DNA from: Xestospongia muta
Taxonomy: Eukaryota > Porifera > Demospongiae > Haplosclerida > Petrosiidae
Assembly (NCBI GenBank): GCA_963693285.1
Contig: OY848926.1
Coordinates: forward strand, 4,324,501 to 4,388,500
Direction of reading: 5' to 3'
Length of the DNA stretch: 64,000 nt
Position 1 is the first letter of the stretch; each line of letters starts with the position of its first letter. Below are positions 3,532-41,100 of the stretch, in pieces. Under the pieces are notes generated by a model. The model searched no databases. It saw nothing but the letters and a program-made list of their open reading frames with translations, and had not been told where the DNA came from. A program made the position numbers and the translations under genes.

Positions 3532-4454
3532 TATTATATGTGTGTTTTAAAATGTTTAGTTAGTTAGTTATAATAATTGTTTTTTTAATGTTTATTTTGT
3601 TGTTTCTTGTGTTTTTTTATAATACATGTACATATTTGTGATTGCAATGTAAATAAATAATAATGATATTATCGTTACAATAAATTTTATTATTACATTT
3701 GACAAAAATGAAGTTAGTAAACATAACACAATTAGTTAGTTTAGCATGTGTCAATAGCTGGTTGACATTTGATGGACACAGTATATCTGTAAACAATAAT
3801 AACATTGATGATGGAGGCATTGCTTTATATAAATCTTCTAAAGTAAATCTTCCTAGTTGTTGCTCAATCAACAAGCAATTCTGACAAAGACTAATGGCAC
3901 AAGACAGCAGCTGATCAATCACATGTATCATAACATATTTCAATATCAATTCTGAGTAACTGACATATTTGTTATCATAACTAACAGTACTGTCAATCAT
4001 AGTTAATAGTGATGTAAATCTAGCCAACAGTGCAGTCCTGTCTCATGTAGTGAACTCCATTTTAAGCAACTGATTATAATGTTTAAAATTAAGAATGCAA
4101 AAAATGGATGTATCACTATAAATCTACATTACTTAAAGATTTGTCATTGTTGTTTGACATTTGATTAATTTGTCAATCTATTAGTACTAATTTTGGTCAT
4201 GGCCAACTAACAGGCAACTGGGTATAATGGTATGAGTGTGTGGATACAAATACAATGACGTCAAGTGTAACATCTTTTATATTAATTGCTTTTTATTTTT
4301 AAAAGCACATCAAATCATTCAAGACCTTGTACACAAAATAGAATGTATGTCAGTTTAATGGTATAATGTTGATAGTAATAGATGCACATAGATGTTGATT
4401 GATACTCAATAGTCAGCATTAATCAACATGAAATCATTTTCTGTTAAGTTTTTA

Positions 4455-4988: not shown

Positions 4989-6327
4989 CTGGGAACTGAC
5001 CAATCAGAATACATGAGGCCAAATTTGCTATCATACTTATGAGTCATGATCACTAGCTGCCACCTATGAATAAGGTTTTAGTATATTATTAAATTATATT
5101 AAAGAGGTTCCATTAGTGTTAAATTTGTAATATGCTTTCGGTAACTGAAGTGTCATCAGTTTATGGAAATAAGTGATCACCAGGAGGATAGAAATCTTTT
5201 CCAATAGCCAAATTGAAAAGACATCAAATATTTAAAGTAGACAGTTGCTATTTGTCAACCAGGAAGTCCATACACTTTAATTGTATTACAATGCTGATTC
5301 CCTAATCCTAAACATTAACTATACACAACAAAGTATGGACTTCCTGCTTGACTGATAGTCACTTCAGTAGCCATCAATTCAACTAATTACTTATCACACT
5401 TAAAAATTGTGTTATACCTGAACTGTGAACTTAAGAATTGTACTATATGCTATCATTGTTTGAAGCTAACCACTTTTGGATTCATCCACTACTCAAAGAA
5501 AAAGGAAGGTATCATGACGGACACTGCTTTATGAAACAGTTAAGTAGTGCAGAAGCAATCACCATTGTGTACATCTATAACAATTGTATATATGTACCTA
5601 AAGTTTTGAAATATATCTCCCAAATCAGGAGACACATCTGGCTTCCTTTCCAGACGGCAAAGATAAAATACTGTGTCAAAACAAAGTGAAGAATTTTTAA
5701 GAGTTAACCAATTAGACAATTCAATTAATGAAAAGATATCAGAAACACATCCTAATTCACTAAAGGAGAAAAAAAATTGATAATTCAGTTTAGTAGTTTA
5801 GTAATATAATTTTATTACAAGTCTTAGTAAAGTAGTAGCAAGAAAACTTTTTAGTTTAAAATTAATTTTGATGCCTAAAAATCCATAATAAAATACTACC
5901 ACCATTGTACAAACAGACAATGCTAAGATAAGGAGGTAACCATTATGTCAAAATGTCTGCAAATAACATAGTTTGAGGAGACATGTCAATAATACCTGCA
6001 CATGATTATGAAGCTATAAGCATTAGTGTGGACTCTGTCCCTCCATTAAAAGAGGTTTTCATGAGACAGGACATCAAAGCTGGTGACATACTAATCTGTT
6101 GTAACATGTCCTCATGTTGTCTAACTAGTAGAGTTCCTGTTTCTTTTAAAGAAGCTCATGTATTGTACAAATTGTGTATGCAATCTTTCCAGGAATATCT
6201 AAATGAGCAATAAATATCAGACCACACATAGATTTAAATGTTAAAGCAACTTCTTTAATATTCTATGATATGAGTAATATTTGACTGACCTTTATATAAA
6301 AGGTTGTTGTAGAGTGGAAGTTTAGGT

Positions 6328-7035
6328 TGTAATCTCTATAGTAATCTGCCTCATCAAGTTGTCCACCTGGAAATGTATGTACATTATCCTATAATTATAA
6401 TAGAAACCAAGAAAAAATGTAACCAGTAATTGATATATTAAATAATAGTGCAGGATTGGTCTATCGAGCATATGAGTCTTTTTAAATCCATCAATATCTG
6501 TGCTAAGAATTCATTATAAATTGTACTCAAAAGTCTAATGGTCAAACCTAATTAAAATTGAATGTGAAATGATCTGTGGGGGATCAATTTTGGCTGCTAA
6601 AATGGTCTTCGGGAAGGTTACAGTGATTATGTAGTCTCTCTGATCTGTGTGGATCTCATCTAGTCTGTTGATATCTTGTAAAAGTAGTTGGAGACATAGA
6701 ACGTTCTAACTCTATATTAGTAACAGTTTGAGGTAATTCATTGACTATTGCTAGCTCCCTAGCTTGGGCTTATTGAAGTTCACTTTGTAATAGTAACAGT
6801 CTTCCTTCATTGATTGATTGTTACTGTTATGTCATGTATATGTACATTTTGATCCTCATTCCTATAATCTCAGTCCCATATAGGAACACGGACATGTGTC
6901 TAGACATAATGTATGATCATGCCCTTTTGATATACTGTGTGTATATTGTTACCTACTTATTATTTCTATGTAATATAGTACAATCCTCTTTAATGGACAG
7001 TAAATCAGTTTTGGTTTCTATAGAGAGGGAGAGGA
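6328..7035. repeat. Duplicated block, copy 1 (copy 2 at 21162-21880)
   Basis: About 700 bp are closely similar to 21162-21880 in the same orientation. Both copies end in a GA-rich microsatellite. Both carry shared interruptions of a weak minus-strand reading frame, so the coding content had decayed before the duplication. Confidence 0.85.
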
Positions 7036-8245: not shown

Positions 8246-10554
8246 TTAATTTCGCCAAATTTGCCACCAACGTTTAATGGTCTCTTTTTCAGCTAACATC
8301 TTCTCAATTTCTTGCTCTTTCTTCATTTTTGTCATAATATCAGCCTGCTCTCTAATCTTTTGAAGATATTGAATGCGGTGCTGCCACCCTGGTTTCTTCT
8401 CATTTTTTTCTGACTCAATTAGTAGATATTCCACTTCAGTGAGTGGATTGGGTATTAAAGCTATATCACTAAGACGCTGGAGAGATTGACGAGCTTGTTG
8501 TATTTTACTTAATACCAATTGTGTAAGGTCACCCAGTTCATTTTGCATTTTCGAAACCTTAGCCTCGACATAAGCCTTTTTCAAAGTAGCCTCTTGGTAA
8601 CGTTTTTTGAGATCTTGTGAAGTTCTAGTCTCTATCTCATCATAGAGCTCAAAATAATATGAATTACTAACATGATGTGTCCAGGGACAATGACCAGGAC
8701 ATACAGTACATTTTGCATCAGAGTGACCACCATTATCCATAACAGAACATTTACGTTTGTCTTCATCATTACTGCATGAACAATTATCATGGCAGGTATA
8801 ATTACATCTTAGACAATTCATGACATATCTTCCGGTTCCTTTCATGTCTATCTTACGCTGTTTGGTAACTTTAATTTCGTAAGTGAAATTTTTATTGGCT
8901 ATAATTTCTGATTCCCTTTGCTTTAAAATGACTTCTTCTTGTTGTAACTCATCCATTTTCGACAGAACCATGTTAATCTGAGGCTGTAGGGCACTAATAA
9001 GACATTCTAATTGCTGATGTTCCCTCAATACTTCACGTGTTAACTGTAGACTAACACTCCTTGCCTTCTCAAAATGGATGAAAAAATCAGTAAAACTTGC
9101 ATAGCCCATGTCCCAGAACATCTGTGTAAATTTTCCTGTTTGTTGTGCAAACAAAACTGAATTGTTGAATGGAAAGAATGCACAGTATGGAATTTTAGCC
9201 GCTTTGACAGCTTCCAATACTTGAGGTTCAGGCCTGTCAGTAAATGTGGTCATTATAAAAACGTTGTTTTTTATGTCTTTACCAAAAATTCCTAAGGCAG
9301 AATCAAAGATGTATTGTTGAGTTATTGTAAGACGAGGCAATAAAGCTTGCAATTGAGTAACAAATCCAATTCCATGTAGTTGATCAATGTCATCCTTCCC
9401 TTGTGTAGAGAACAGATGTTTCACTTGTTCTATTATTTTTTTATCTCTTTCAATATCTCTTGTATCACCAAACCCTGGAGTATCGATAATGGTGAGATTA
9501 TAAGGTACAGGAAATCCTTCCTGCCAATAGAAAGTATATGCTGTGATCCACTCAGTCTGACTGTGTGCTTGTGATCTCTTGCTTTCTCCATTCTCAGTCT
9601 TGCTCTTCTCATCTTCATCGACAATCAGTTTAAAACGAAAGTCATATGTATATTTAACATCCAACAAAAAGTTTGTCATTCCATTTATTAGTGTACTCTT
9701 ACCAGCACCAGTGGCTCCCATGACCATTAAAACTTTGGTAGGTTTAGGAGGACAACTTTCGCAACCAAATGTGACCTTGGCAATTTTCTTTAATGGATCT
9801 TTCATGGTTGTTTTAGTTGATAATTTATAGATTGGTAATGAAGATTTTTCATCTGACTTTACACGTAATGTTTGACATTTTACAGCTAGTGGAAGTGATT
9901 TGGTTTCAATTATGTCACTGAGTTGGCTCTCTGGACTAAAACCAATGTCATATTCAGCTTGTAATTTAAATATATATTGAGTACTAGGTTGAAGATCATT
10001 GATCACAATATGAGTTTGGCTACCTAGAATTGTTTTCCTTTCCCAAACTCTTGCTTCATTATCCAATGTTTGGTAGAAGACACTGTAAGACTTAACGCTA
10101 CTTTCTCCAGTCATAGGACCACACCATTTTATTTCAATGTTGTCCCAACTTGCTTTTACCACCATTGGTTTTTCCAGTGCTGAAGGGGGTTCAAATGGGC
10201 TGTAGACACCAGATTGATATGATACAAGAATGGCACATTTGTCATCAGGAATTGAAATATGACTAGTATCAGTGACAACAAACTTTATTTTTATGCTAGT
10301 AGCCTGGTTAGCATTGATAAAATCTGAAAAACATTTGATTTGGATCGTTGCATCTGCTATGATGTCTTTGTCATTGTACCATAGCTTTTTAAGCTCAATT
10401 TCTGGTGTGGGTTGTGAGTGTAAGTATGAAAACATCCTTTCTAGGTTAGGGTCTTTCCTTGCATTGATTTTGAATTCAAAGCTAAAAATAAAATCTAAAG
10501 TTTCATCTTTAATTATACCATTGAACTCTAGCTGATCAAAGGCAAAATAAAGGC
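8246..10554 (-). CDS. Exon 21 of the giant gene: thioredoxin-like segment, FN3, GTPase, Cys-rich tail
   Basis: A single 2309-nt exon. It opens with LYFAFDQLEFNGII (thioredoxin-like segment of SNTX-family proteins), then an FN3 domain, then a P-loop GTPase with GATGAGKST (about 9692-9718) and LTIIDTPGFGDTRD (switch 2), resembling AIG1/septin-type GTPases. A helical region follows, then a cluster of CxxC-like pairs (CLRCNYTC, CTVCPGHCPW) likely to bind metal, and a charged coiled coil ending WWQIWRN. SNTX plus GTPase fusions occur in other animals; I do not recall the CARD/Death extension. Confidence 0.85.
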
Positions 10555-13500
10555 CTATGAAAAATATTATAATTATTGTATCTATATAACAGTTGACTCA
10601 CCTGGAACTTCATGTAGCTGTTTTAAATACTGTGAAAGCATACTAGCTTCTCTCTTCTTCTTCTCTAGCCAGGAAGTGAGTGCAAAAATATTTAAAGGGG
10701 ATGCTTGCTGCTGTGTTATAAGTTTGTTTAAGTCTGCCTCTTCACATCTTCCTACTCTTATTTGTGGTATTAAGGCAGCTAGATCTTCAATAAACTTGGA
10801 CTTGTGCTTTTTAATCAGTGATATAAAATCAGCTATTTGTTCTCGGATGCTAGGAAAATAGCTGTAAATATCACAATTCAATAGCTCTCTGCTATTCATG
10901 TTCAGGATATGAAAATTATCAAATAACTCCTCTATTTGTGTCACTAAAACAGACGTTACCCCTTGTACATGTTTAACTTGAACTGTTCTTTTATCAAGAT
11001 TACTCAGAGGATGAAGCCAAGCTAATTTTGGGATTGAGCTAGTGGACAATACTTTTGGTAGTTGTTTGTAAACTTCAACAGCATCTCGAAATGAGGTAGG
11101 GGTTTCTGGTAGTACACAGTCACAATAAAACTTGCATCGAAGTTTTTCAATATGGCTTGTCTCATTGTCATTCTGCTCTTTTTCACCATTAGCAAAACTT
11201 GGAAGTCTCTTTATTAGTCTCTCCATTTCATTTTGCACATCATCAATGTTCTCCTCTTGAGATACCTCTCTCTCAAAGACAAAAAATGCTTCAGCTCCAT
11301 ATAATACTCCAATGACAATATGAGTAGCTATATCTTTAGTAACAACAGAATATTGAAATTGTGCAGGTCGTTTTGTCAAAAGATGTTCAAACTTTGTAGT
11401 GCATCTGTACCTTAGAGTAACTTGAGCTATATGCTGGGAAGATTTATGGTCATGAAGGTATTCAGCTGATTTAGAAACTTTAACAAGACCTCCAATAATG
11501 CTCAATTGTAGATCTGTACAAATACCTAATTGGGACATTTTATTGGATAACATGTCCTCTGAGAAGATCTCAAAGGTTGAGGTATCCTGTTTTTTGATAT
11601 TACAAGGTTTCCATATAGCATCTATTGTAATTTCAGGAATAAGATGATCTTTGACAGAGTCATATAGCATTCCAAGTTGAAACTGACGTCCTAAGCACTG
11701 AGTTACTATTGATACCTCTTTTGGTAATGTACTAGGTGTGTCCTACAAGTCATTGTGAGATAGACCAAATGAACATTATGATAGTAACATAGCTAGCTTA
11801 CTTTGACATATGTTTTATTTGCACGAGTCATTACATCAATTATTCTAGTTAACAAATCCACTTTTGTAGGACACAACAACTACATGATAATGATCCCATA
11901 AAAATGATTAAACTAGATATTATTATACCTTGTCAAAGCGATCAGTTATTATGGTCCTTAGTAGAAAAAACCAGTCTTCATGCACAAGTATATTGTTAAA
12001 ATATGCTGTCTCAAGAATGTCATTCCAACTCTATAGCAACAATGTAAGTAGCTTTAAATATATTTATATTTGACACACCTTCAGTTCAACTTCAATTACT
12101 TGTTCATTTGGTTCGTCTCCATGTAAGTGTTCTATCCAACATTTTACATCACTGGTTAGTTTGTGGATATGTTCTTCCTTTGCTCTCCAACTCATCCAAC
12201 TCAATTTATCCAATACAGTTAGAAACAGTTTGATTGAAGACAGAAATAACTCTAGTGTTAGTGTTGGCTCTAATGATGATGTCTTCTGGATCAAAGTATT
12301 CACATTATTATAACATAGTTGTTCTTCTTCAATGCAAATGTTTCTATGCAAGGACAAATGATCATTATAATGACAAAGATACTATAATAATTGTTTACCT
12401 GTCTCTTATTGAAACTGTAATGGTTTTTATAAGTCTCAGTAATTTCTGAATCTATATAATAAATTATTTGTTGAATTTAAATGGCATATAAAAAGCAATA
12501 CTAACATCAGAACTGTTTAATTCTTGATTACATGGTCTAACAACAACCAATGAACATGTGTAAGGAGATACTTCTGGATAATATTGAAGACAAATTGGTA
12601 ATTGATTCAATGATGAAAGAGTAACCCAAGCTCTTGCCATTAGCCAGTCAACAGCAAAATAATCTTTAATTAAATTATAAGATGTTTCAGCAAAGCTATA
12701 CAGGAAAATTTTCACACACTTGCATTAATTGAATGACAAGTTAACCTGTTATCTTCCATAGCCATTTCACAAAAACTACTGATATCTAGTCCACAAAACA
12801 AAGTCCTCTTAATTTTTTGTTCTGTTATAGGAAGAGAAAATGGCTCAGAAGGCTTAAAGTCATCAAGAGTGATAATGTGAAGGAAGGGTAGAGTTTTCAT
12901 CCACTCGTAATTCGGATTTGGCTGTTCTATTAATACAGTGCACATTAAGTGAACTGCTTTGACAAGAAACCTGTTAGTCCGAGAAAAACATAAGTTATGA
13001 CAACCAATCTGAATAACCAACTGTACCTAAACTCAGGTAATAAATTTTTGATAAATCTGTAACACTCCATAAACTGTGTAACTGGTATAAAGAAAGCCCT
13101 TAGGATTATAATTATTTCTTCAATGTGATGTTCCATTCTAATTTCACTGATCAACAATGCATATGAAATCATAATACCAGTACAGAGTTTCTGCATGTCA
13201 TTTGTACAATTCACCAAGGATGCCATGTTTTGAACATAGACCTGAATGTAATATAATTAAATACTACAAAAAAATTCAAAATTCAGTACCTTTTCAATCA
13301 GATCACTATCAAAAGAATCCTCTGTTCTTTCTTTAGGCAAACAATTTATTGTTTGCTTCAGACAATTAAATACAGTAGAAAACTGTTTTCCCTTAAGTAG
13401 AGCTTGAGCAATTGTAGATGGTTCAATGTCATTCCATTTTTCATTGATCCCAAATTCAAAGAAAGTTGATAAAGCACTTTTGGTTTCAATACAGTGTGTA

Positions 13501-16500
13501 TCATTGGCAGGTTGCTCAATAAGAAAATCAAACTGCTTTTGCTGAGCACCTTATTCAAAAAAGTAAAAAATTAATGAATTCCAGCTATTTTATATTTACT
13601 TTGCTTTATTCCAATGACCCTCCATTCATAAGTGTTTAATGCAAGACTTTCAAACTTTGGCCCCTTCCAGTGACTATAGAAGATGGCATATTTATAACGA
13701 AAGTATTTATTTTGCCACAAAAAATCATCTGGAATAGGCAGACTGCAATACATTACTAAACTGTTTGAATCTGAACTCTGAAAAATGCTGAAATTGAAAA
13801 CGACAATGGTATCCATTAATGTTTGCTACAATAGAAACATATACCTTTCAAATTTTCCAAAGAAAACATTTCCATTGCAAATTTCTTTTGAAAGTATAGA
13901 GAGTGATAAGCTCTGATGAGGCTTTATATTCCAATAACTAAGATTTACTGTAACATAAAAGATTACCCTAGAGCAATCTTTTGTAGAGACATTAGGAGGA
14001 GACCTGGTTAAACAAAATTTATGCTGAGAGTATTAAAAAATGAACTAACCATTTAGTGTGCAGTTTATGAAAAAAATATTTAACAAGCATGTCATCACTG
14101 TTAACATCAGCTTGAAATGACTTCTTACTTGATATGTTACTATGATTGTTTACAAGTTGATCAGCAGGTAGAACTTCAAAATCTTCCAAGCATGAATTTT
14201 CTAATAATGATGCTACCATATTTATGATAGTAAATTGAAATTTAAGTAATATATCATCTTACATTCTGGAATGACTTCCTCTTGTTCATGTTCTAATGTA
14301 ATTATTTCTCCTTCAATTTCTTTTTTCTCTCCAATACTTTTACATGTTACAAGACATTTCCGTAAGCTCTGTATTTCCTTTTCCAATTTATCATGTTCAT
14401 CTTTCAGAAACTTCTATACATAATAATCATTATAACAACAAAATAAAAACAACATTATGAAAAAACTTACGTAATACTTTTTAGAATCCTTCAATTTCAA
14501 TCTATATGCCTCCTGCTGACGTAAAATTTTACTTTGCAATAGAAAATTTTCTTTTTCCAATTCTTGGCGACACTTTTTATTTTCTGCAATTTCATAGTTT
14601 TTCTTTTCCAACTCTGCTGTAATGTCATTTTTTTTCTTGTTATTCTGTTCAATCAGGGATTGTAGCTCTTGATTTCTTTTAGTTAAGTCTTTAATTTTAA
14701 TTTTAGCTTCTTCTATAATTTCTTGAAGAATGTTGCAGCTTTCATCATCTTTAGCCACTTTCAATTGCCTAATAGCCCATATTTTTAACTTCTCTTCTTT
14801 AGCCAATTTGCTAGCAACAGCAGTATGTTCATTTTCACTGCTGTTTATCTCTGCATCAACTCTTTTCATAACAGACCACAATGATTCAATAGCAAGGTGC
14901 AAGTCCAAACTTTCATGATCAACTTTGTCAATTTTCTGAATAACATGGTATTGCTCTTCAGAAAAATGATGTAATATTTCTTCTCTACATCTCTTCTGGG
15001 TTCTTGATCTCTAGAAATATAGAAAACATTGTGAAAAAAAATGTAATAGCATTACATACAGCAAAATGATCACTAGCTAGCTCTCCAGTAGGAAATAATG
15101 AAAGATACTGGCATCCTATAAAAGAAAATGACAAAGCTTGCACATAATTATAACAATAATAAAGTTACCATATTTCAAAGCAATTTTTTTTGCAAGAGGC
15201 TGATATCCATTTTTTTGAAGAGCTTCAATAATCGATGTCCAAGTTTGATCAGGATGCCTTATAAGCCATTCTATAAGCATATCATGAAGATACTGCTGTG
15301 GAGGAATATTTTTATTCTCAATAGATCGTAAAACATGAGGTTTCATTTTTAAATGAATACCTAATCCAAACCAATCTGAGGACACCTCTTCTAATTCACA
15401 TGCTATCTTACTCAGATCTTTCACTAATTAAAATATAACAATTTTAACAGATTCATAATTCTGCACTTACTTGTTAAATGTATTGCCTTAATGCCTTTCT
15501 TTTGGAAGCTTTCCAAAAAATTACAAATCATTCCTTCAGTGAAGATCTGTACACACTCTTCCCAATTAGATTGAAGAACTTCACGAAATAGCAGCTCATG
15601 TTTCTCAATATTTGGAGTGACTAAGTACAGCTCTGTAGATAGGTTTAATGGTTGCCATTCAGTTTGAGTAGATATGACATTACATAAATGATGTTGAAAT
15701 GTTTTATTTGATAAAGACTGCATCAAAACTCCAACTTGACCTGGACTTAAAAAATGAAGTTGAAACACAGGTGTCTTGTCAGATCCACATAATAAAATAG
15801 TCACATCATAGACACCATTTTCCTTAGCCACCTCAAGAAGACATGCTCTTAGAGTACTAACAGGCAATGGTAAGTTTTCTCCATTGTAATCTATAACTAA
15901 ATCTTTATTAATTTCTTTAAGTTCAATTTCTGCGTCAATAGGTGTAATTGCAAGCCAAAATGAACTTTCATAAATTGATGTATGAATATTAAAAGATGTT
16001 TCTAAAAAGAAAGCAAAATTATAATTGTAAAAGTAATCTATAATAAAGATTTTATCAAGATTTATCATCATGTTCATTTGAGCAACAATATAATGTAAAA
16101 CAATTGAAATGGATATATACCCATATACTGTATATATAAATACCAAAATAATGATGCATAATTAACATATCTCCCTACACACACACATTTATAATAAGAT
16201 TCATAGCCTACATATGGAGTGTTCTGTTTATTAGTATTGTGGTAGTGATGCCTATGTAGGGATGGTTCAAATTATCCATTGAAATGTATTAGCAGAAATC
16301 AATGAATAATTCAGATAAAACACGTTAGAATCTCTCAATACATGGCAGCTTTTGTTTTTATAGTAATGCCCAAATAATGAGTGATTTACAATGTTTCTGA
16401 GAATCACAACAAAATACTACTGATTTTGTTTCTCCTTTTGCTTTTGTAGCCAACAATAACTCAGTCACTGATGAAAGGTTTGCCACCATTTTCTCAGACA

Positions 16501-19500
16501 TAACACAAGATGAACTATGTGCTTTTGGTCTCACATTTTGAGTGTTTTAGAATGAACATAGTGATTTCAGCAGTGAGTATTTAATTTGTCTCTCAAATTT
16601 ATGTCATTTTCACATGACATCATCAATGTGTATGTATTTATTTAACGAATATTGAAATATACAGTATAGTGTCTGGCACTAAGTATAGATGTGTTGATGT
16701 TCACCTTAAAAGAACTAATTAATAATTTCTATATTAGTATGTTGTAAAGTTGCAAGCTTATACACATTCATGATTATAAATAAGTAAAAATAAAGTGATT
16801 ACTGCCTGCACGTGTTAGCTATAAAATATTGTATATCTGCTTTTCTTCGTTTTATTATATTATTGTATGCGACTTTCAAAAGTTATCAATAAAAAGCGAC
16901 TAATAAGAATAATTAACTCACATACAGTAACCACCGACACACATAGCAATCAAATTAATATCATTAATTTTACCGTGAGTGTTACAATTGAGTGGAACTG
17001 ATCGAAGCTTTTGAGTCTTTTATGCCTTTGAGCAGATCCATAGCTTCTACCAACTCATCAGTCTTCAAAGTAACAATAATCCAGTCCCTTACAGCAACAG
17101 AAATACTATCAAAGTAATGTTAGCACAATTTTTAAAATTATAATTTGTTCTTGTTACAAAATCACTCTTTTGAGTATACGTATTAAGTTCCGGTTGATGT
17201 TTTGAGAAAAAATTCTATGGTCATTTGGTTTTACTTGAGTTGTTTGTTGTCTTCAAAATATTTGTTGTCCTTGAGCTAAAGAGATTACTTCAAGTACCTT
17301 ATTTTAAGTACCTTACCAAGTACTTCATTTCAGACACATTAAATTACAAGATAAGTGAAAGTACACCTAAAAACCAACGAATACATACTTATACTATGAG
17401 TGCTTTAGTTTGGGCATGACTGAGATTGAAGCTTCTGAGTCTGTTACTTGAGAAATGTCTTTAAGGAGATCCATAGTTTTGCCAAATCTTCAGTATTTAA
17501 AATAAGCAATAATCTAGTCCCTTATAGGAACAGCAGTACTATCAAAATAATCTTAGAACGGTTTTCATAATTATATTCTTGTGCTGAAATGTTTTTTTAT
17601 TATTTGTATATTATGACTTCCTAAACCTTAAACTCCTAAGCAATGAAATGTTTTAGAAAGTACTTCTGAAATAAAATTCATATTACACTTACATGTGAAT
17701 GATGCAATGGATTTCATACATGACGCAACAATGGATAATATACTCTTCAGATTATTAATCACTGTTGGTATTTGGACATTGTACACACATTAAACAAACC
17801 AATGCGAATGGAATATCATACAGTATGTAAGTATAATTCAGTTATAACACTCTTAAGAATACCTAACATACAAAGTGTAACATACAAAGTGTGCTAAGCA
17901 AAAATCATTGCAATTAAGGCTAATCTGAAGGTGGATTGTGGAACCACACAAACAAAAAATGAAAATTCTCATACCTTTTAAAGAATTATTTGGTGGCTTC
18001 TCTTGTACTTGATGGTTTTGTAATCTGGCCATTTCCAACTCTATAAATAATGTATCAATTATTATACTTTATAGGTTATTCACAGGTATAGCATAGATGG
18101 TCTATATGTTATCAATTGTTGCTCAGCTTGGGGTAAAATTCACACTTGATGTTATAACATTCATATACTGTTATACACATATGCATATTCATAAATTATA
18201 TTCATATATCCTATAAGCAACAGTACATAAATATTGTCCCTTATTCAGAATAGATCAAGAAGGCTAGATCTATTTATGTTGTGAAACAACAAGAGCTCCA
18301 TAAAGGCATCCAAACATCATCAACCACAAGTAGAATTAACAAGCATAAGACATCTACTGTAAAATATATTGTATCTGGGTCTTATTGAAATGCCAATAGT
18401 CTCATCACCCACTAATTAGATTCACATTGAAACATTTTGGCTAGCTCAAAGTTTTCAATTATACAAACTTACTTATATCAATAGCAATTTCTTTCAGTGC
18501 GTCATCATCTTCCATGACTAAAATTAAATTGTATATAAATTGGGTACAATCCAGAGACTGAGAAGCTTTTTGCATTAGACCATTTAAGAGTATACTAGCT
18601 GCAGCCTCATCCACATGAAGGTTAGATGCTTCCTTAAAGTTGTCATAATATTCTCGTGAGATAAGTTCTTGATCATAAAAAACTTGAGCTACTTTAGAAG
18701 AGTCAGAAATAGCTTGTAATAAACGTTTCCAATGCTTTTCAATAATGTCTATAGAATAGAGAAAAATAAGTATGATATTGTAAATTATTTGATCAATAGT
18801 GAGCATGCAAACCGTGCGTTTATTTTTCAAAAAGGCAACATTAAGCATCCAGCAGAACCATGTGTATTGAACTGATGCAAATTTCTTAATATTATTTCAA
18901 ACATATAACCACTTCACTGCTGAACGCCTTAACATGTGACCACTATAATCTGATAGTGTATCCTTAGCGTCTACTAGCAGTATTTAATTTCATCACAATA
19001 TTTTTTGTGGATGACCCACGTACAATGTATATAGCTTGTTTGTGTACTAGCTACATTTCCTTTCCCAATCTATCTATTATAGACTCTAATTATACCCAGT
19101 ATAGTTGTTACTCTCAATGTTTCACTCTATTTTGTATCACTTATCACATTCATTGATCACCATATTGTTATCATGGCATTATAAAGTTACTACTACTACT
19201 ACTACTACTAAATTTGGCAATGCAAAAAGACAAAGAGCAGAATGTGAAATTATTAAATGTGTGAATGCTTGCTTATAAAACATCTAGAGCAGTGCAAAAG
19301 TGAATGAGACCATAAAATAATTAAAAATTAGAAGGTACTTTGTATTATGCAGAAATTATTTATCAATACAAATGCTAAAGTTTACTTTTTCTCAATTAGG
19401 ACAGCCAAAAAAGACTAAGAGATCAAACCAGCACTCATCAATATAGTAATCTATCAGGAAATATTTATTGCGCGAAATGGGGACATAAAGCAATGCACTA

Positions 19501-19788
19501 TGATGAGGTCAAATTATAAATGGGAGATCTGAATTATAAATAAGAGATCTAAATTATTTGTTAAAATTGAGTACACAACAGTTCATCGCTTTTTGTCCCA
19601 TTTGTCACCCCATAATTACAATTGCAGCGACGGGCAGCATCGCCAGCGTGCTTGTTTCGTTCCTTTGCTTAAGTAGCTAGCCTCGAGAAACTAGCAACAC
19701 GCATGATTTACTTACTACTGAACTCCACTTCTTGATGTACAGCTTTACAGGTTATTCTCTCAGTAGACATCAACAGCCTCCTCTCCAT
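8246..19788 (-). CDS. Giant CARD / Death / coiled-coil / SNTX-type / FN3 / GTPase protein (21 exons, ~2441 aa)
   Basis: Exons in transcript order: 19788-19716, 18748-18473, 18040-17975, 16001-15471, 15423-15169, 15115-15060, 15010-14471, 14413-14263, 14212-14050, 14003-13845, 13787-13600, 13549-13290, 13241-13027, 12970-12716, 12695-12506, 12451-12399, 12343-12079, 12030-11929, 11879-11802, 11742-10602, 10554-8246. Every junction has GT..AG and a compatible phase; the exons sum to 7326 nt, exactly 2442 codons with a TAA at 8246-8248. Domains by rough residue: CARD 25-116, unknown 139-315, Death 316-400, coiled coil 420-600, long helical region 650-1290, SNTX-type MACPF-like plus helical module 1293-1672, thioredoxin-like segment to about 1790, FN3 about 1794-1890, GTPase from about 1945 (P-loop 1952-1960, DTPG 2030-2033), Cys-rich region, C-terminal coiled coil. 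The start is the first ATG of a short exon 1 joining the CARD in phase. CARD and Death domains recruit partners in apoptosis and inflammation, so an immune or cell-death role is inferred. It could still be two genes, but no internal stop or new start was found. Confidence 0.78.
10602..11742 (-). CDS. Exon 20 of the giant gene: SNTX-type MACPF-like and helical module
   Basis: This 380-residue exon begins DTPSTLPKEV and includes LGRQFQLGMLYDS, a hallmark start of the stonustoxin/neoverrucotoxin (SNTX) family module. Other family-like segments are VIGVLYGAEAFFVFEREVS and, near the end, the WLEKKKREASMLSQYLKQL helical segment. Family knowledge: the N-terminal part has a MACPF/CDC-type fold, and most homologues are non-venom intracellular proteins in fish and invertebrates. 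Here it is embedded inside a long intracellular-type protein with no signal peptide, so a venom role is not suggested. Whether it can form pores cannot be judged. Confidence 0.8.
14263..15010 (-). CDS. Exons 7-8 of the giant gene: coiled coil
   Basis: Exons 15010-14471 and 14413-14263 encode a long run rich in K, E, Q and L with heptad-like spacing (for example KNYEIAENKKCRQELEKENF), typical of a parallel coiled coil. It separates the Death domain from the large helical middle region and could drive oligomerisation. Confidence 0.75.
15169..15423 (-). CDS. Exon 5 of the giant gene: Death domain
   Basis: This is an 85-residue Death-domain exon. It has LSKIACELEEVSSDWFGLGI (helices 1-2, with the typical W), a central hydrophobic/acidic helix, and QTWTSIIEALQKNGYQPLAK (helices 5-6). 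Family knowledge: Death domains mediate homotypic assembly. The same fold type occurs in the caspase-like gene at 38195 and in the small genes at 30249, 33072 and 35851. Confidence 0.8.
16002..17974. other. Intron 3 of the giant gene, with two decayed exon-like copies
   Basis: Between exons 3 and 4 there is a minus-strand exon-like block at 16982-17105 (acceptor tttgatag, then frame ISVAVRDWIIVTLKTDELVE, ending in TAA). A diverged copy at about 17460-17550 is broken by a stop. Its phase does not match exon 3, so it is probably a relic and not an alternative end. Confidence 0.5.
18473..18748 (-). CDS. Exon 2 of the giant gene: CARD-like domain
   Basis: This exon encodes about 92 residues, starting IIEKHWKRLLQAISDSSKVA and followed by a helical pattern containing YYDNFKEASN and a SILLNGLMQKA motif. 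These have the length, spacing and amphipathic helices of a CARD. Exon 1 (19716-19788) supplies MERRLLMSTERITC and joins in phase 1. The CARD assignment is by pattern, not by search. Confidence 0.7.
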
Positions 19789-20560: not shown

Positions 20561-20566
20561 ATTTTC

Positions 20567-20880
20567 TCTAAAATTGCCACCAACTTTTGACCTTCTCCTT
20601 TTTGGATAATGTTTTTAATGTCTTGCTTTGTCTTCATTTTGTCATGAATTCAACCTCTTCTCTAACCTACTGAAAAAAAGGAATGCTTTGTTTCCATCCT
20701 GTATTCTTCTCACTTTTAATTTTCTGACTCAATTAGTCAATCAACGTATTCCACTTCAGTGAGTGGGTTGGGTTTAAAAGCTATTTCATTTAAAAGTTGG
20801 AAACATTGACGAGCTCGTTGTATTTTGTTAAACACTAATTGTGTGAGTTGACCCAATTCTGCTTGCATTTTAAAAACATA
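20567..20880 (-). pseudogene. Broken copy of the giant gene's C-terminal end
   Basis: About 310 bp resemble 8258-8575 (the end of exon 21), including matches around 'ttccacttcagtgagtg' and 'ttgacgagct'. Small insertions and deletions disrupt the frame and no upstream exons follow. It lies next to the duplicated block at 21162-21880, so parts of the 6-8 kb region were copied here. Confidence 0.8.
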
Positions 20881-21161
20881 CTTTCTGTATTACCCTAGTG
20901 CACATGGTTTACACAATAATGTGCTAATTTATAATTTTGTAAGTTAATAGATGATTATGTTCTCCAAAATAATATGCTTTAGCCTTACCTGGTCTTTGTA
21001 AGTCAGCAGTTGAACCTTGGCCATTCGTAGAATAGTTAGAGTATACGGAGGCATACAAAAACATTCCAAAATTTTGTATAGAAATAAAATCCAAAGAAAG
21101 TATGTAGCTCCGTATACTTTCCAACAACTGTTAGGTGAATTTGATTATAAAAAAAATCAGG

Positions 21162-21872
21162 TTGTAATCTCTATAGTAATCTGCCTCATCAAGTTGTCCA
21201 CCTGGAAATGTATGTACATTAGCCTATAATTATAATAGAAACCAAGAAAAAATGTAACCAGTAATTAATATATTAAATAATGGTGCAAGATTGGTCCATC
21301 GAGCATATGAGTCTTTTAAATCGATCAATATCTGTGCCAAGAAAATGTTTTTCATTATAAATTGTACTCAAAAGTCTAATGGTCAAACCTAATTAAAATT
21401 GAATGTGAAATGATCTGTGGGGGATCAATTTTGGCTGCTAAAAATGGTCTTTGTGAAGGTTACAGTGATTATGTAGTCTCTCTGATCATTCTCTCTGATC
21501 TGTGTGGATCTCATCTAGTTTGTTGATATCTTGTAAAAGTAGTTGGAGACAAAGAATGTTCTAACTCTATACTAGTAACAGCTTGAGATAATTCATTAGC
21601 TATTGCTAGCTCCCTAGCTTGGGCTTATTGAAGTTCACTTTGTAATAGTAACAGTCTTCCTTCATTGATTGATTGTTACTGTTATGTCATGTATATGTAA
21701 GTTTTGATCCTCATTCCTATAATCTCAGTCCCATATAGGAACATGGACATGTGTCTAGGTGTAACATATGATCATGCCCTTTTGATATACTGTGTGTTTA
21801 TTGTAACCTACCTATTATTTCTCTGTAATATAGTACAATCCTCTTTAACGGACAGTAAATCAGTTTTGGCTT

Positions 21873-21880
<8 letters not shown>
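21162..21880. repeat. Duplicated block, copy 2 (copy 1 at 6328-7035)
   Basis: Closely similar to the copy at 6.3 kb in the same orientation, ending at a (GA)n run at 21881-21954. It is followed by a short (TA)n run near 21980 and GATA repeats to about 22027. The remaining 22030-22930 shows nothing I can assign. Confidence 0.85.
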
Positions 21881-21958
<78 letters not shown>

Positions 21959-30248: not shown

Positions 30249-30775
30249 TTACTGATGATAATCTTTTAGTTCCTTATATTTCTTGTAAACATCATTCCTA
30301 GCAAGATATTCTCTTACAGTATCGGCAATACGAGGTTTATTGACTGGTGGAGTTTCTAGTACATCAAGAAGGGTCTCCCATGTAACAGGACGGGTTCGCA
30401 TGTCAATCCACTTTTGTAATGTGTCGGAAAGTTTTGAGGCATCAGGTCGAGGATTATATTGTAAGCTTTGTAACTCGCCAAATGGAACTTCAAGAGACTC
30501 TCCTATGCTTCTCCAATCATATGCAATTTCTGATAAGACAGATGTCAAATCTTTCATTGTTGGAGATTTTTTAAGGATTTCACGAATGTTGTTTGCTAAT
30601 GTGGTGGGAAAAAGGGACTTTAATGACTATACCTTCTCTAAACATAACTGGTCCTTAGCATGCATAACATTTTATACTGACTGGTCGATATTAATGCAGC
30701 ATTTACTGCTACACAATACTATATTACACTTTGTATTAGTCTACAAGAAAATCAATGTTGGTACAACTCACCCAT
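30249..30775 (-). CDS. Death-domain-only protein, copy 1 (2 exons, 116 aa)
   Basis: Exon 1 is just ATGG (30775-30772) before a GTGAGT donor; exon 2 is 30595-30249 after a pyrimidine-rich acceptor ending cattag. Joined, it reads MANNIREILKKSPTMKDLTS and continues as a single Death domain: SEIAYDWRSIGESLEVPFGE (helices 1-2 with the W), WIDMRTRPVTWETLLDVLET (helices 4-5) and a last helix ending KELKDYHQ. Nothing else is encoded. Family knowledge: single death-fold proteins often act as adaptors or as inhibitors that cap assemblies. It lies opposite to BuGZ, with convergent 3' ends about 275 bp apart. Confidence 0.8.
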
Positions 30776-33071: not shown

Positions 33072-33577
33072 CTAGTTCCTATATCTCTTGTAAACATCAG
33101 TCCTAGCAAGATATTCTCTTACAGTATCGGCAATACGAGGTTTATTGACTGGTGGAGTTTCTAGTACATCAAGAAGGGTCTCCCATGTAACAGGACGGGT
33201 TCGCATGTCAATCCACTTTTGTAATGTGTCCGAAAGTTTTGCATCAGGTCGAGAATCATATTGTATGCTCTTTAACTCGCCAAATGGAACTTCAAGAGAC
33301 TCTCCTATGCTTCTCCAATCATATGCAATTTCTGATAAGACAGATGTCAAATCTTTCATTGTTGGAGATTTTTTAAGGATTTCACGAATGTTGTTTGCTA
33401 ATGTGGTGGGAAAAAGGGACTTTAATGACTATACCCTCTCTAAACATAACTGGTCCTTAGCATGCATAACATTTTACACTGACTGGTCGATATTAATGCA
33501 GCATTTACTGCTGCACAATACTATATTACACTTTGTATTAGTCTACAAGAAAAGCAATGTTGGTACAACTCACCCAT
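33072..33577 (-). CDS. Death-domain-only protein, copy 2 (shortened, ~109 aa)
   Basis: Exons 33577-33574 (ATGG) and 33397-33072. Same as copy 1 except for a one-codon deletion in the middle (SRPDAKLSD) and a small deletion at the end. The latter replaces the KELKDYHQ tail with a quick stop after DVYKRYRN. The Death fold itself is probably complete. It may be functional or an early decay product. Confidence 0.7.
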
Positions 33578-35850: not shown

Positions 35851-36384
35851 TTACCGATGATAATCTTTTAGTTCCTTATATCTTTTAAAAACGTCATCCC
35901 TAGCAAGGTATTTCCTTATGGTAGTGGCAATACGAGGTTTATTGACTGGTGGAGTATCTAATATTTCAAGAAGGGTCTTCCATGTAACAGGACTGGTTTG
36001 CATGTCAATCCACTTTTGTAATGTGTCGGAAAGTTTTGAGACATCAGGTCGAGAAGTATATTGTAAGCTCTGTAACTCGCCAAACGGAACTTCAAGAGAT
36101 TCTCCTATGTTTCTCCAATCATATGCAATGTCAGATAAGACAGACATCAAATCTTTCTTCTCAGGAGATTTTTTAAGGATTTCTTGAATGTTGTTAGCTA
36201 ATGTGGAGAAAAAAGGGACTTTCATGACCATACTTTCTCTAAACATAACTGGTCCTTAACATGCATAGTGCTCTATATTGACTGGCCGATATTAATACAA
36301 CACCTACTGCTACGCAATACAATATTACACTTTGTATTACTCTATGTATCTACAAGAAAAGAAATGATGGTACAACTCACCCAT
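35851..36384 (-). CDS. Death-domain-only protein, copy 3 (116 aa)
   Basis: Exons 36384-36381 (ATGG) and 36197-35851. The frame is full length with many amino-acid differences from copies 1-2: MANNIQEILKKSPEKKDLMS, then SDIAYDWRNIGESLEVPFGE, ending KELKDYHR. Retention of an open frame, the ATGG mini-exon and both splice sites despite divergence argues that the protein is used. Confidence 0.78.
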
Positions 36385-37153: not shown

Positions 37154-37349
37154 GTAAATAAGTTAGTAAAATCTGAATGCTCAGTATGAGAAACATGCCA
37201 CAAAATGTCATTATTGTCTATAAGATTTGTTGCTGTGTACATTACATATGGAGTACTGAAAAGTTTATTTTTGTTAATTTTAAATGGATTATTATGTACA
37301 AGACTTGGAATATACAGTCTATACTAAAGGATCTATTAGTTATTTCTAT

Positions 37350-38050
37350 ATAGAAACTGACCTCTAAGAAATAGGCTTCCAACTGAGGACACATAATAAG
37401 GTCCTTGTATATTTTGGCCCAATTTCTGACATGTTTCTTCAACAACATCATTCCAGGTCATATCAAGTATAGTAGAAATGGACACATCATACTGGAGGTT
37501 ATTACACAATGTCTTGGTCAAGATCCCTTCAGTTATGTAATCACCACTTGAAGCAGCTGCCAGAGATGTAGCATAGGCAATGATACAATGACCACAAGGT
37601 GATAGAAATAAGGGTTGTTTTGGGAGGTCTTGTAGGATCAGATTTTTGCATGATAGGTACCTTTCCTGCCTCAGAGCTTTTTTGAGACAACAATCAAAAA
37701 ATAACAATTGATAATGATCAGAGAGACGAGGGGCTTGGGATGGCTGGAATGGAAAGACAATGCCTTCATAAAACCTTGGATCCTTATCCTTACAAGGTAT
37801 GAGATAACCTTTACCATCTTCCCTCCCTCCATGTCCAGCATAATACATTACTACAAACTGGTATGATGTAGGATATACTGCTGTGCTGGCAACTTTTATG
37901 ACATCTTATCAATGTCTGGATTTTTGACAACATACACTCCAACTTAAGGTTTTCAAATGTGGTTTTGATCAGTTCAACATCAATGTCGGTGCCTTGAGGA
38001 CCGTACTTATTAACAATGCCCAATATATATGATAGCAACACCAACATTTT
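37350..38050 (-). pseudogene. Caspase-like pseudogene, unit 3
   Basis: A near full-length copy of the caspase-like exon at 38966-39718, including the YYAGHGGREDGKGYLIPC region and FFDCCLKK. A frame break falls in the first third: the start is read in one frame to about 37900 and the rest in another. With its linker exon inverted, it cannot give the normal protein. The catalytic His and Cys codons are still present. Confidence 0.8.
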
Positions 38051-38194: not shown

Positions 38195-41100
38195 TTAATG
38201 ACAACACTTTGGACAAGTATGAGGACTGGCTAAGAATTTGGTAATACCATCAGCTTTGTCTTCACCACAACTGTTCCTTATTGCTCCAATGAGATGAAAC
38301 CATTTGAGATTGGTACATTTTGAGATCATTAATTGGATAGCTATAGCATTATCTCCCCTAATGTTCCTTAATTTATTAGGATCAAGCACTGTGGTTTGTA
38401 ATCTTCCACCAATTTCCCGCCACTTATCAGCAATACCTTGATTAGTAAATGCTTCAAAAACATGGCCAGAACAAGGTGGATCTGAATTTTTATAAACTCG
38501 GTCTATATAACAAATACATAAGATCTTAATATCAATAATATCTGATAATTATTGTTCAAGTGTTATGTGCTGTTTATGTAAGCTTGCTAACTTATTTACC
38601 TTCTTTCTCATCTATTACATTGTTAATACCTCCTTCTCTAGGTACTTGTTGTACTGTGGGTGTAGTATTCATCAGAGCTATAGGAGCAGGATCACCAAAT
38701 TTTTTTAAGATGTCCTCTTTTTTCCGTTGATAAGGAGCTAGGCATAAAATTTAAATAATTTTTAAAAAATCTTAATACTCAGTACGAGAGCCATGCCACA
38801 AAATCTACAATGTCATTATTGTCTAAAAGATTTGTTGCTATGTACATTACATATGTACTACTGAAAAGTTTATTTTGTTAATTCTCAAGGCAGTGTTATG
38901 TGCAAGACTTGGAATATACAGTCTATTCTAAAGGATCTATTAGTTATTTCTATATATAAACTGACCTCTAAGAAATAGGCTTCCAACTGAGGACACATAA
39001 TGAGGTCCTTGAATATTTTTGCCCAATTTCTGACGTGTTTCTTCGACAACATCATTCCAGGTCATATCGAGTATAGTAGAAATAGGCACATCATACCGGA
39101 GGTTATTACACAACTTCTTGGTCCAGATCCCTCCAGTTACATAATTACCACTTGAAGCAGCTTCCAGAGATGTAGCATAGGCAACAACACATTGACCACG
39201 AGGTGGTAGAAATGAGGGTTGTTTGGGATCAGATCTTTGCACGACAGGTACCTTTCCTTCTACAGAGCTTGTTTTGAGACAACAATCAAAAAAGAACAAT
39301 CGATAACGATCAGAGAGATGAGGGGCTTGAGATGGCTGGAATGGAAAGACAATGCCTTCATCAATGTAAAACCTTGGGTCATCATCACCACAAGGTATAA
39401 GATAACCTTTACCATCTTCACTCCCTCCATGTCCAGCATAATACATCACTACAAACTGGTATGATATAGGATAGACTGCTGTGCTGGCAACTTTTATGAC
39501 AGCGGCAATCTTATCAACATTTGGATCTTTGACAACATACACTCCAAACTTAAGGTTTTCAAATGTGGTTTTGATCAGTTCAACATCAATGTCGGTGCCT
39601 TCAGGACCATACTTATTAACGATGCCCAATATGATGGCAACACCAACGTTTTCTTTTGTAATCAAAATTTTGTTAAACTCATCCTTTACCTCTTCATACA
39701 CTTTATTAGAAGGTATAGCTACATAGACAAAAAATTGTAATTATTTTAAATACAATAGCATCATTACTTACGACGTGTCCATGTATTAGAATGTCCCTAT
39801 AATAAGAAAAAAAAGAATAAATTTTTCACTAAACATGTATTTTAAAAGTTAAAATGATGAAATCTATATCTCCTTACTGATTGAGCAGGCAAGCATGTAG
39901 CATTTTCAAAATGGTATCCAGTCCCTCCTTGTGACTGAGGAGGGTATGTAGGACCTCCTTGTGACTGAGGAGGGTATGTAGGATTTCCTTGTGACTGAGG
40001 AGGGTATGTAGGACCTCCTTGTGACTGAGGAGGGTATGTAGGACCTCCTTGTGACTGAGGAGGGTATGTAGGACCTCCTTGTGACTGAGGAGGGTATGCA
40101 GGATATCCTGGTAGCTGAGGTGGGTATCCAGGGCTTCCTGGTAGCTGAGGTGGGTATCCAGGGCTTCCTGGTAGCTGAGGTAGGTATCCAGGGCTTCCAG
40201 GTAGCTGAGGTGGGTATCCAGGGCTTCCAGGTAGCTGAGGTGGGTATTCGAAGCTTCCTGGTAGCTGAGGTGGGTATCCAGGGCTTCCTGGTAGCTGAGG
40301 TGGGTATCCAGGGCTTCCTGGTAGCTGAGGTGGGTGGTATCCAAGGTTTAATGATAGTTGAGGTGGGTATCCAGGATTGTCTCCTTGTAGCTGAAGTGGG
40401 GTACCTGTAACTAGTGAAAGACAGTACTGTCAATGTAATAGTGTTATTAGCTTACCATCTACCATATTTTGGGGTGGTACTTGACTACTTGTAGTTTTGC
40501 TAATTAAGATTCATAGATCACAAGATGGGAAGAATAATTAATTATGCATGCTACAAATTTAGTTTTTTGAACAAGTATGAGGACAAAAAATCTTCAGTAA
40601 TATCTGCCTTATCACAGTCACCCATGCATCCCATTGCTGAAATGGAATCAAATTACTTTATGAACTTTTTGAAAATGTAAACTCAATGTTGAATTCTAGC
40701 TTTATTCAGAAACTTCTCACAACAATCCTTGTCAGTCAACATTTATTTGGGAGTACCACATATACCAGACTGGAAAGTGTTAACTTCAATAATTTTCCAA
40801 AATCTTTCAAGTTGGCATCATAAACTACTAGTGCTCTGTAAACTTGTATATGTATAACAGACAGTGCATGTGTTCCTTCTTTTATACCATTAGTTCTTAT
40901 GATAACATAATTTTAATTTTTTGCCATCTGACCTTCAAAGTAAAAAAAAAACCTTTAGGAATCAATTTACCTTCCTTCTTTTCCCTACATCGAATGTATA
41001 TGTACAATGTAAATATTTAGAGGACAGTTAAATTTACTGAATATTCTTGCTGATCATGAGATGTACGAGAGACTGTTGATAAGATTGACTACACCAAAAA

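Follow-up and report, generated by a model that had tools for sequence, protein, structure and literature searches.

Within a 64,000-nucleotide stretch of the genome of the sponge Xestospongia muta (the window; positions 4324501-4388500 of contig OY848926.1, here C10), a minus-strand chain of 21 predicted exons (19788..8246) points to one chimeric gene, in which 19 exons of an RNF213-like N-terminal half are joined in an unbroken frame to two exons encoding a stonustoxin-type (SNTX) module, a thioredoxin-like domain, a fibronectin type III (FN3) domain, and a GTPase. Taken together with the mode of action proposed below, this reading has in our assessment about an even chance of being correct. 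Death-fold and TRADD-N proteins with variable C-termini are known already, as are SNTX-FN3-GTPase proteins, which are widespread and uncharacterised; new within the searched databases and literature is an RNF213-type head joined to the SNTX-GTPase core.

The exon chain was derived from codon and splice scores by merging dynamic-programming runs (exons 13-14 from the first run, exons 11 and 16-19 from the second) and was settled before any relative was known. Chains of 25 and 33 exons, which placed additional small exons inside the long introns, were rejected. All borders are GT-AG and the phases match, giving one joined frame of 7296 bases, i.e., 2431 codons and one terminal stop. The initial annotation, made by a model from the letters alone, had proposed 21 same-strand exons with matching phases, a structure that was rebuilt here; its single open frame stood as well, its exact count of 2442 codons did not, the present frame having ten fewer with the stop included. 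Introns 4-20 measure 46-59 bases. The observation is far beyond chance, because the alignment to a paralog reaches 1213 bits and 17 of 19 introns agree with it in both column and phase.

This paralog (C10:5671355-5675927) was the single locus carrying all matches in order when the genome (158 Mb, 28 contigs) was searched with exons 2, 4, and 10-19. Its gene model of 4455 residues, built with the same gene finder as that of the window except for exon 19, which was placed by DNA similarity, matches RNF213 structures over the AAA+ region at 1.8e-191. Residues 25-1256 of the window protein align with paralog residues 10-1236 at 54% identity (679/1263 columns). The two remaining introns, number 1 with an offset of three columns and number 19 with one of seven, agree in phase, the latter offset sitting at the end of an exon whose length differs in the paralog; an extra predicted paralog intron of 43 bases, inside the exon 9 equivalent, has no counterpart in the window. 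Nonsynonymous and synonymous divergence of the pair (dN 0.292, dS 0.78 over 1222 codons) points to constraint, with the lineage left unassigned. Judged by its sequence, the N-half corresponds to the N-terminal part of an RNF213-like protein, an identity that the initial annotation had overlooked.

Three further RNF213-like stretches on contig C5 match the arm (exons 10-19) at 27-30% identity and run on past the exon-19 region; in one, a Death-like domain precedes the arm, at 22.1 bits just below the cut-off of 22.6. The N-half gave no match in the protein database at E 0.001, and an arm profile (A3) retrieved from the PDB only chance-level rows of an unrelated protein (E 0.28 and above). By sequence, neither the arm nor the 377-residue head, whose rows all stood at chance level (E 0.41 and above), matched an RNF213 structure or another relative in the PDB, and Pfam and PDB sequence searches gave no match for a CBM20 domain in the N-terminal part. 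The RNF213-like family in this genome is large: its places lie at C10:5.48-5.68 Mb and C10:4.07 Mb and on C2, C5, C15, and C1, and on C10, the contig of the window, nine of them line up in a tandem-like run. Close matches to CARD, TRADD-N, and arm were found only in the window and at 5.67 Mb; other family members may for this reason carry different N-termini. An N-half of such identity to the paralog over its whole length, together with the run of RNF213-like places on C10, would also suit a decoy or regulator, whose shared head joins the complexes of the RNF213-like paralog and whose C-half is secondary. We consider this improbable, as the C-half is open across 1149 codons with its GTPase motifs in place.

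After exon 19, the paralog runs on into RNF213, whereas in the window the SNTX exon follows 59 bases later in matching phase, across intron 19 (11743..11801, phase 0), the chimera junction. At E 0.01, nothing in the window matched the remainder of the paralog, residues 1237-4455; by this search the dynein-like AAA+ modules and the E3 module of RNF213 are missing. The paralog also has exon 19 with its GTAAGC donor and, on this basis, exon 19 probably splices onward. The receiving exon lacks a start codon: an in-frame TAG stands at the acceptor of exon 20, 16 codons ahead of the LGRPF motif, with no Met between. The genome holds at least six SNTX loci including the window, and in each of the five other copies LGRPF is preceded by an in-frame Met at a distance of 9-14 codons and by an in-frame stop at 12-41 codons. 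A database search with the C-half, which took proteins up to about 2010 residues, yielded 65 matches; among the top 40 (P0002-P0041), which were examined, 39 have a listed GTPase family. In 36 of these 40, the first 46 residues contain the SNTX motif; P0027 has it at residue 67, and the motif pattern was not found in P0002, P0010, and P0014; a separate protein search missed P0002 and P0025. Since most relatives begin near the SNTX motif, the C-half is usually an independent protein; here, it forms the 3' end behind an RNF213-like head.

That most SNTX-GTPase relatives stand alone is also what two overlapping genes would lead one to expect, namely a truncated RNF213-like gene and a separately transcribed SNTX-GTPase gene whose promoter lies within exon 19 or close to it and which starts at the exon 19 Met; an in-frame ATG is indeed present ten codons ahead of the donor. 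This arrangement has a low probability in our view, because the paralog shares the exon 19 donor, from which exon 20 follows in phase, and exon 20 is without a start of its own. A short isoform could be made beside the long one. On the genomic evidence, transcripts that stop after the coiled-coil exons and restart before the SNTX exon are disfavoured. Fusion of two genes by an assembly error would find some support in the RNF213-like and GTPase-tail fragments that flank the region and speak for a rearranged area, but the contig spans 6.49 Mb and the junction lies, in matching phase, inside an intron whose length is typical of this gene, making such an error very improbable.

Several observations, the exon 19 ATG among them, weigh against one chimeric gene. 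Introns 1-3 are long (967, 432, and 1973 bases). Exon 1 (19716..19788), with the proposed start codon, an open frame, and a GT donor, is the least certain and has no homology support, the paralog alignment beginning only at residue 25; no second match to its DNA was found in the genome. Furthermore, the gene finder attached the SNTX copies on C5 and C14 to upstream exons too, among them Death-like exons in the case of C5. As this simple finder fused neighbouring genes at both loci, we make no claim for these joins, though the one on C5 may be real. On C5 (1498411-1524863), a rough model with uncertain gene borders contains two SNTX-FN3-GTPase copies. A Hint module of the Hedgehog type (2.7e-48) comes after the second copy, whose GTPase belongs to AIG1 (6.7e-24) and which has Death-like stretches upstream (21.5 bits, below cut-off); a GTPase-Hint-like stretch is located ahead of the first.

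Domain assignment of the C-half is based on Pfam and PDB matches. Exon 20 (10602..11742) encodes the SNTX MACPF (about 11700-11197) and stonustoxin helical (about 10923-10645) domains and exon 21 the thioredoxin-like SNTX domain (10256..10540), each over its Pfam cut-off and in this order (MACPF_SNTX 5.8e-9, Stonustoxin_helical 3.6e-20, Thioredoxin_11 8.3e-14). In the PDB, exon 20 matches two stonustoxin subunits at 1.5e-59 (4wvm, 366 residues) and 6.9e-56. Further along exon 21 follow the FN3 domain (9920..10162; Pfam fn3 1e-10, over cut-off) and a septin/AIG1-type GTPase (9248..9730; Pfam Septin 2.7e-8, over cut-off) with the motifs GATGAGKST, DTPGFGDT, and TTFTD, which include the P-loop and DTPG; its PDB match is septin CDC3 at 2.9e-5, and the AIG1 family was not listed for the window protein in the Pfam scans. 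A Cys-rich segment (8672..8824; CxxC motifs at residues 2243 and 2278) and the C-terminal tail with the stop codon (8246..8644) complete the exon. GTPase and tail are 47% identical to the C14 copy. NCBIfam gave no match for exons 4 and 20 and only weak, below-cut-off matches for exon 21. The SNTX-type MACPF-like module, FN3, P-loop GTPase, and Cys-rich tail proposed from the letters alone were thus all recovered.

Stonustoxin-type toxins end in PRY/SPRY. The window protein shares the MACPF, helical, and thioredoxin-like domains with stonustoxin, but has no PRY/SPRY in the whole-protein Pfam scan at E up to 0.1 and carries a signalling head and a GTPase instead. Vertebrate and other proteins with SNTX, Thioredoxin_11, FN3, and septin/AIG1 GTPase domains have the domain families of the C-half, at up to 43% identity over 97% of it (P0003); in contrast to the window protein, no Death or CARD is among their listed domains. 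A Glomus cerebriforme protein (P0001; kinase-SNTX-DUF7656-GTPase) likewise combines a signalling head, an SNTX MACPF, and a GTPase (AIG1 25.7 bits, just below the cut-off of 27), but its head is a protein kinase and death folds are not listed. For P0062 from Megalobrama amblycephala, named NLRP14-like, the listed domains include SNTX helical and thioredoxin-like families; it is perhaps another join of SNTX and an immune receptor. An RNF213-type head with an SNTX-GTPase join was not found in the protein database searches, one of which took proteins up to about 2010 residues and another of which missed P0002 and P0025, and no SNTX-RNF213 or SNTX-Death protein was named in the literature searched at the level of titles and abstract openings. 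That the core occurs in uncharacterised vertebrate proteins, and with a kinase attached in a fungus, fits a signalling scaffold, as does the lack of PRY/SPRY in the Pfam scan. Such a chimeric scaffold would act without lysis, the SNTX MACPF being structural or membrane-tethering and the death-fold signalling assembly being under GTPase control. Against it stands the similarity of exon 20 to toxin subunits over 366 residues, and we regard it as possible, but rather unlikely.

For the head, fold models were used to identify CARD and TRADD-N, as Pfam gave no usable match on the single exons. Exon 2 (18473..18748; residues 25-117) is predicted to form a six-helix death fold whose nearest structures are CARDs. 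The CARD of the initial annotation is therefore backed by the predicted fold and not by a profile: exon 2 has no Pfam match, a PDB profile search with the CARD alignment gave no match, and a relative on C3 scored weakly against Pfam CARD (0.14, below cut-off). A CARD-like family with at least 150 matches (150 of 337 candidates scored) on nine contigs (C1-C8 and C12) exists in the genome; a link of the window CARD to it reached E 0.07 only and was left unused. Exon 3 (17975..18040; residues 117-139) is a linker bordered by introns 2 and 3, whose column and phase the paralog shares. Exon 4 (15471..16001; residues 139-316), which the initial annotation had passed over, is predicted to adopt a TRADD-N (RRM-like) fold. 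It has no Pfam match, and a five-row TRADD-N profile retrieved only chance rows from the PDB (E 0.41 and above). A Ser at the beta2-beta3 turn is given as a TRADD-N feature in a figure legend of PMC8195603; by eye, Ser73 of exon 4 (model sequence numbering) is positioned at this turn, between strands 63-71 and 76-83, and the residue is present in three of the five rows of alignment A1 and absent from the two C4 rows. The Death domain is encoded directly after the TRADD-N exon, in exon 5 (15169..15423; residues 316-401), with Pfam Death at 3.8e-8, over the cut-off, in line with both the annotated Death domain and the Death-superfamily coupling of TRADD-N. Death and SNTX, but not CARD, consequently passed the profile check that had been suggested.

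Exon 6 (15060..15115; residues 401-419) is a further linker with introns 5 and 6 conserved in the paralog. Exons 7 (15010-14471) and 8 (14413-14263), spanning 14263..15010 and residues 420-650, are coiled-coil-like and conserved in the paralog. The coiled coil annotated here failed the test of heptad periodicity over the whole stretch (1728 of 2000 shuffles were equally good), but was positive in a 28-residue window test run afterwards (12 of 500). The linker of exon 9 (14050..14212; residues 650-704) comes from the exon chain, and its paralog equivalent is divided by one predicted intron. Exons 10-19 (11802..14003; residues 704-1282) form the RNF213-like N-terminal arm, identified by the paralog match; exons 10-14 lie at 14003-13845, 13787-13600, 13549-13290, 13241-13027, and 12970-12746, and exons 15-19 at 12695-12506, 12451-12399, 12343-12079, 12030-11929, and 11879-11802, all on the minus strand. 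With Pfam, PDB, and predicted folds combined, the originally proposed domain order stands as an annotation.

Sequences flanking the gene suggest that the area was probably rearranged more than once, because copies of the tail and an RNF213-like AAA fragment are found on its flanks. Directly upstream of the gene, a decayed copy of the C-terminal tail (20563..20877, minus strand) has 74.8% DNA identity to 8250-8557 and stops in all three frames, and another tail fragment with stops is located at C10:4318226-4318483. The RNF213-like AAA fragment (C10:4321337-4321553) is a fragment not proven to be decayed, as stops also occur within the paralog match, probably by intron read-through. A 730-base repeat of 92.6% identity, perhaps a mobile element, flanks the gene at 21159-21888 and 6324-7033. 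On the strand of the gene and about 10-20 kb upstream, we observed three similar Death-like open reading frames (30255-30626, 33078-33428, and 35857-36255; E 4e-4 to 8e-3, none reaching the cut-off) together with two that encode caspase domains (37342-37905 and 38946-39740; 9.5e-11 and 2.1e-21, over cut-off). Two nearly identical open reading frames of 141 residues are located at 493-915 and 3620-4042, also on the minus strand.

Three other known systems offer points of comparison. With RNF213 (mysterin), as represented by the paralog, the window protein shares sequence, order, and most introns over its N-terminal 1256 residues, but it lacks the AAA+ motor and later RNF213 sequence and has SNTX-FN3-GTPase instead. 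RNF213 is reported to coat intracellular bacteria and parasite vacuoles, and the N-terminal CBM20 and adjacent stalk of the human protein to be under positive selection (PMC11549300). In the same report, human RNF213 lacking residues 1-586 (CBM20 and stalk) was recruited to none of the tested pathogens; the authors caution that this mutant forms bright structures which may sequester it, and they call the outcome ambiguous for CBM20 point mutants, which had no effect (PMC11549300). Concerning TRADD-N proteins of marine invertebrates, a Death-like domain followed by TRADD-N in an N-terminal unit and a variable C-terminus are described as in the window protein, 357 NCOA6-clade members are counted in the sponge Amphimedon, and AIG-GTPase fusions are mentioned for other animals (Kaur et al. 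2021, PMC8195603). Differing from the window protein, RNF213, MACPF, SNTX, and stonustoxin are not named in the main text of that paper, which proposes that TRADD-N, placed between flanking domains, keeps them inactive until a signal frees the effectors (PMC8195603). NLR inflammasome receptors are alike by analogy in their death-fold head and NTPase, but the window protein has a GTPase and not NACHT, and neither NACHT/NB-ARC nor LRR appeared in the whole-protein Pfam scan at E up to 0.1. The term inflammasome-like in the initial annotation accordingly holds as an analogy, and its idea of signalling and membrane action in one protein as an annotation.

Under the reading as one chimeric gene, we tentatively propose an effector swap, to which we assign rather less than an even chance. 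Here, an RNF213-type sensing arm with a CARD/TRADD-N/Death head would drive a GTPase-gated, perforin-like SNTX module on the same chain and attack a membrane (the invader's, the vacuole's, or the cell's own) where the paralog would ubiquitylate. In the mode of action rated above at about an even chance, the arm would sense a damaged membrane or the surface of a microbe or vacuole; clustering of the chains and recruitment of death-fold partners would fall to the coiled coil together with the CARD and the Death domain, with TRADD-N as a possible relay between head and output; the septin/AIG1-type GTPase would gate assembly at the membrane, on which the SNTX MACPF would then act, replacing the AAA+/ubiquitin output of RNF213. 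Sequence or predicted fold supports the exon chain, the domain identities, the RNF213-like origin of the N-half, the stand-alone nature of most relatives of the C-half, and the absent SNTX start codon, while a single transcript, a ligand, oligomerisation, GTP gating, membrane action, and a role in immunity are inferred; of the steps of action, the domain identities alone are supported and every step itself is put forward conditionally.

A chimera that retains the N-terminal half of RNF213 with another output would suggest that this half is a portable sensor. The gene pair would present, in one animal, a common head with differing effectors. The chimera also brings domains of the stonustoxin type, most familiar from venoms, into what looks like a signalling protein, and it contributes an example whose junction is mapped to the pattern of constant heads and variable effectors proposed for TRADD-N proteins. 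Under the effector swap, trading of N- and C-termini within the run of RNF213-like genes on C10 may give rise to more sensor-effector pairs.

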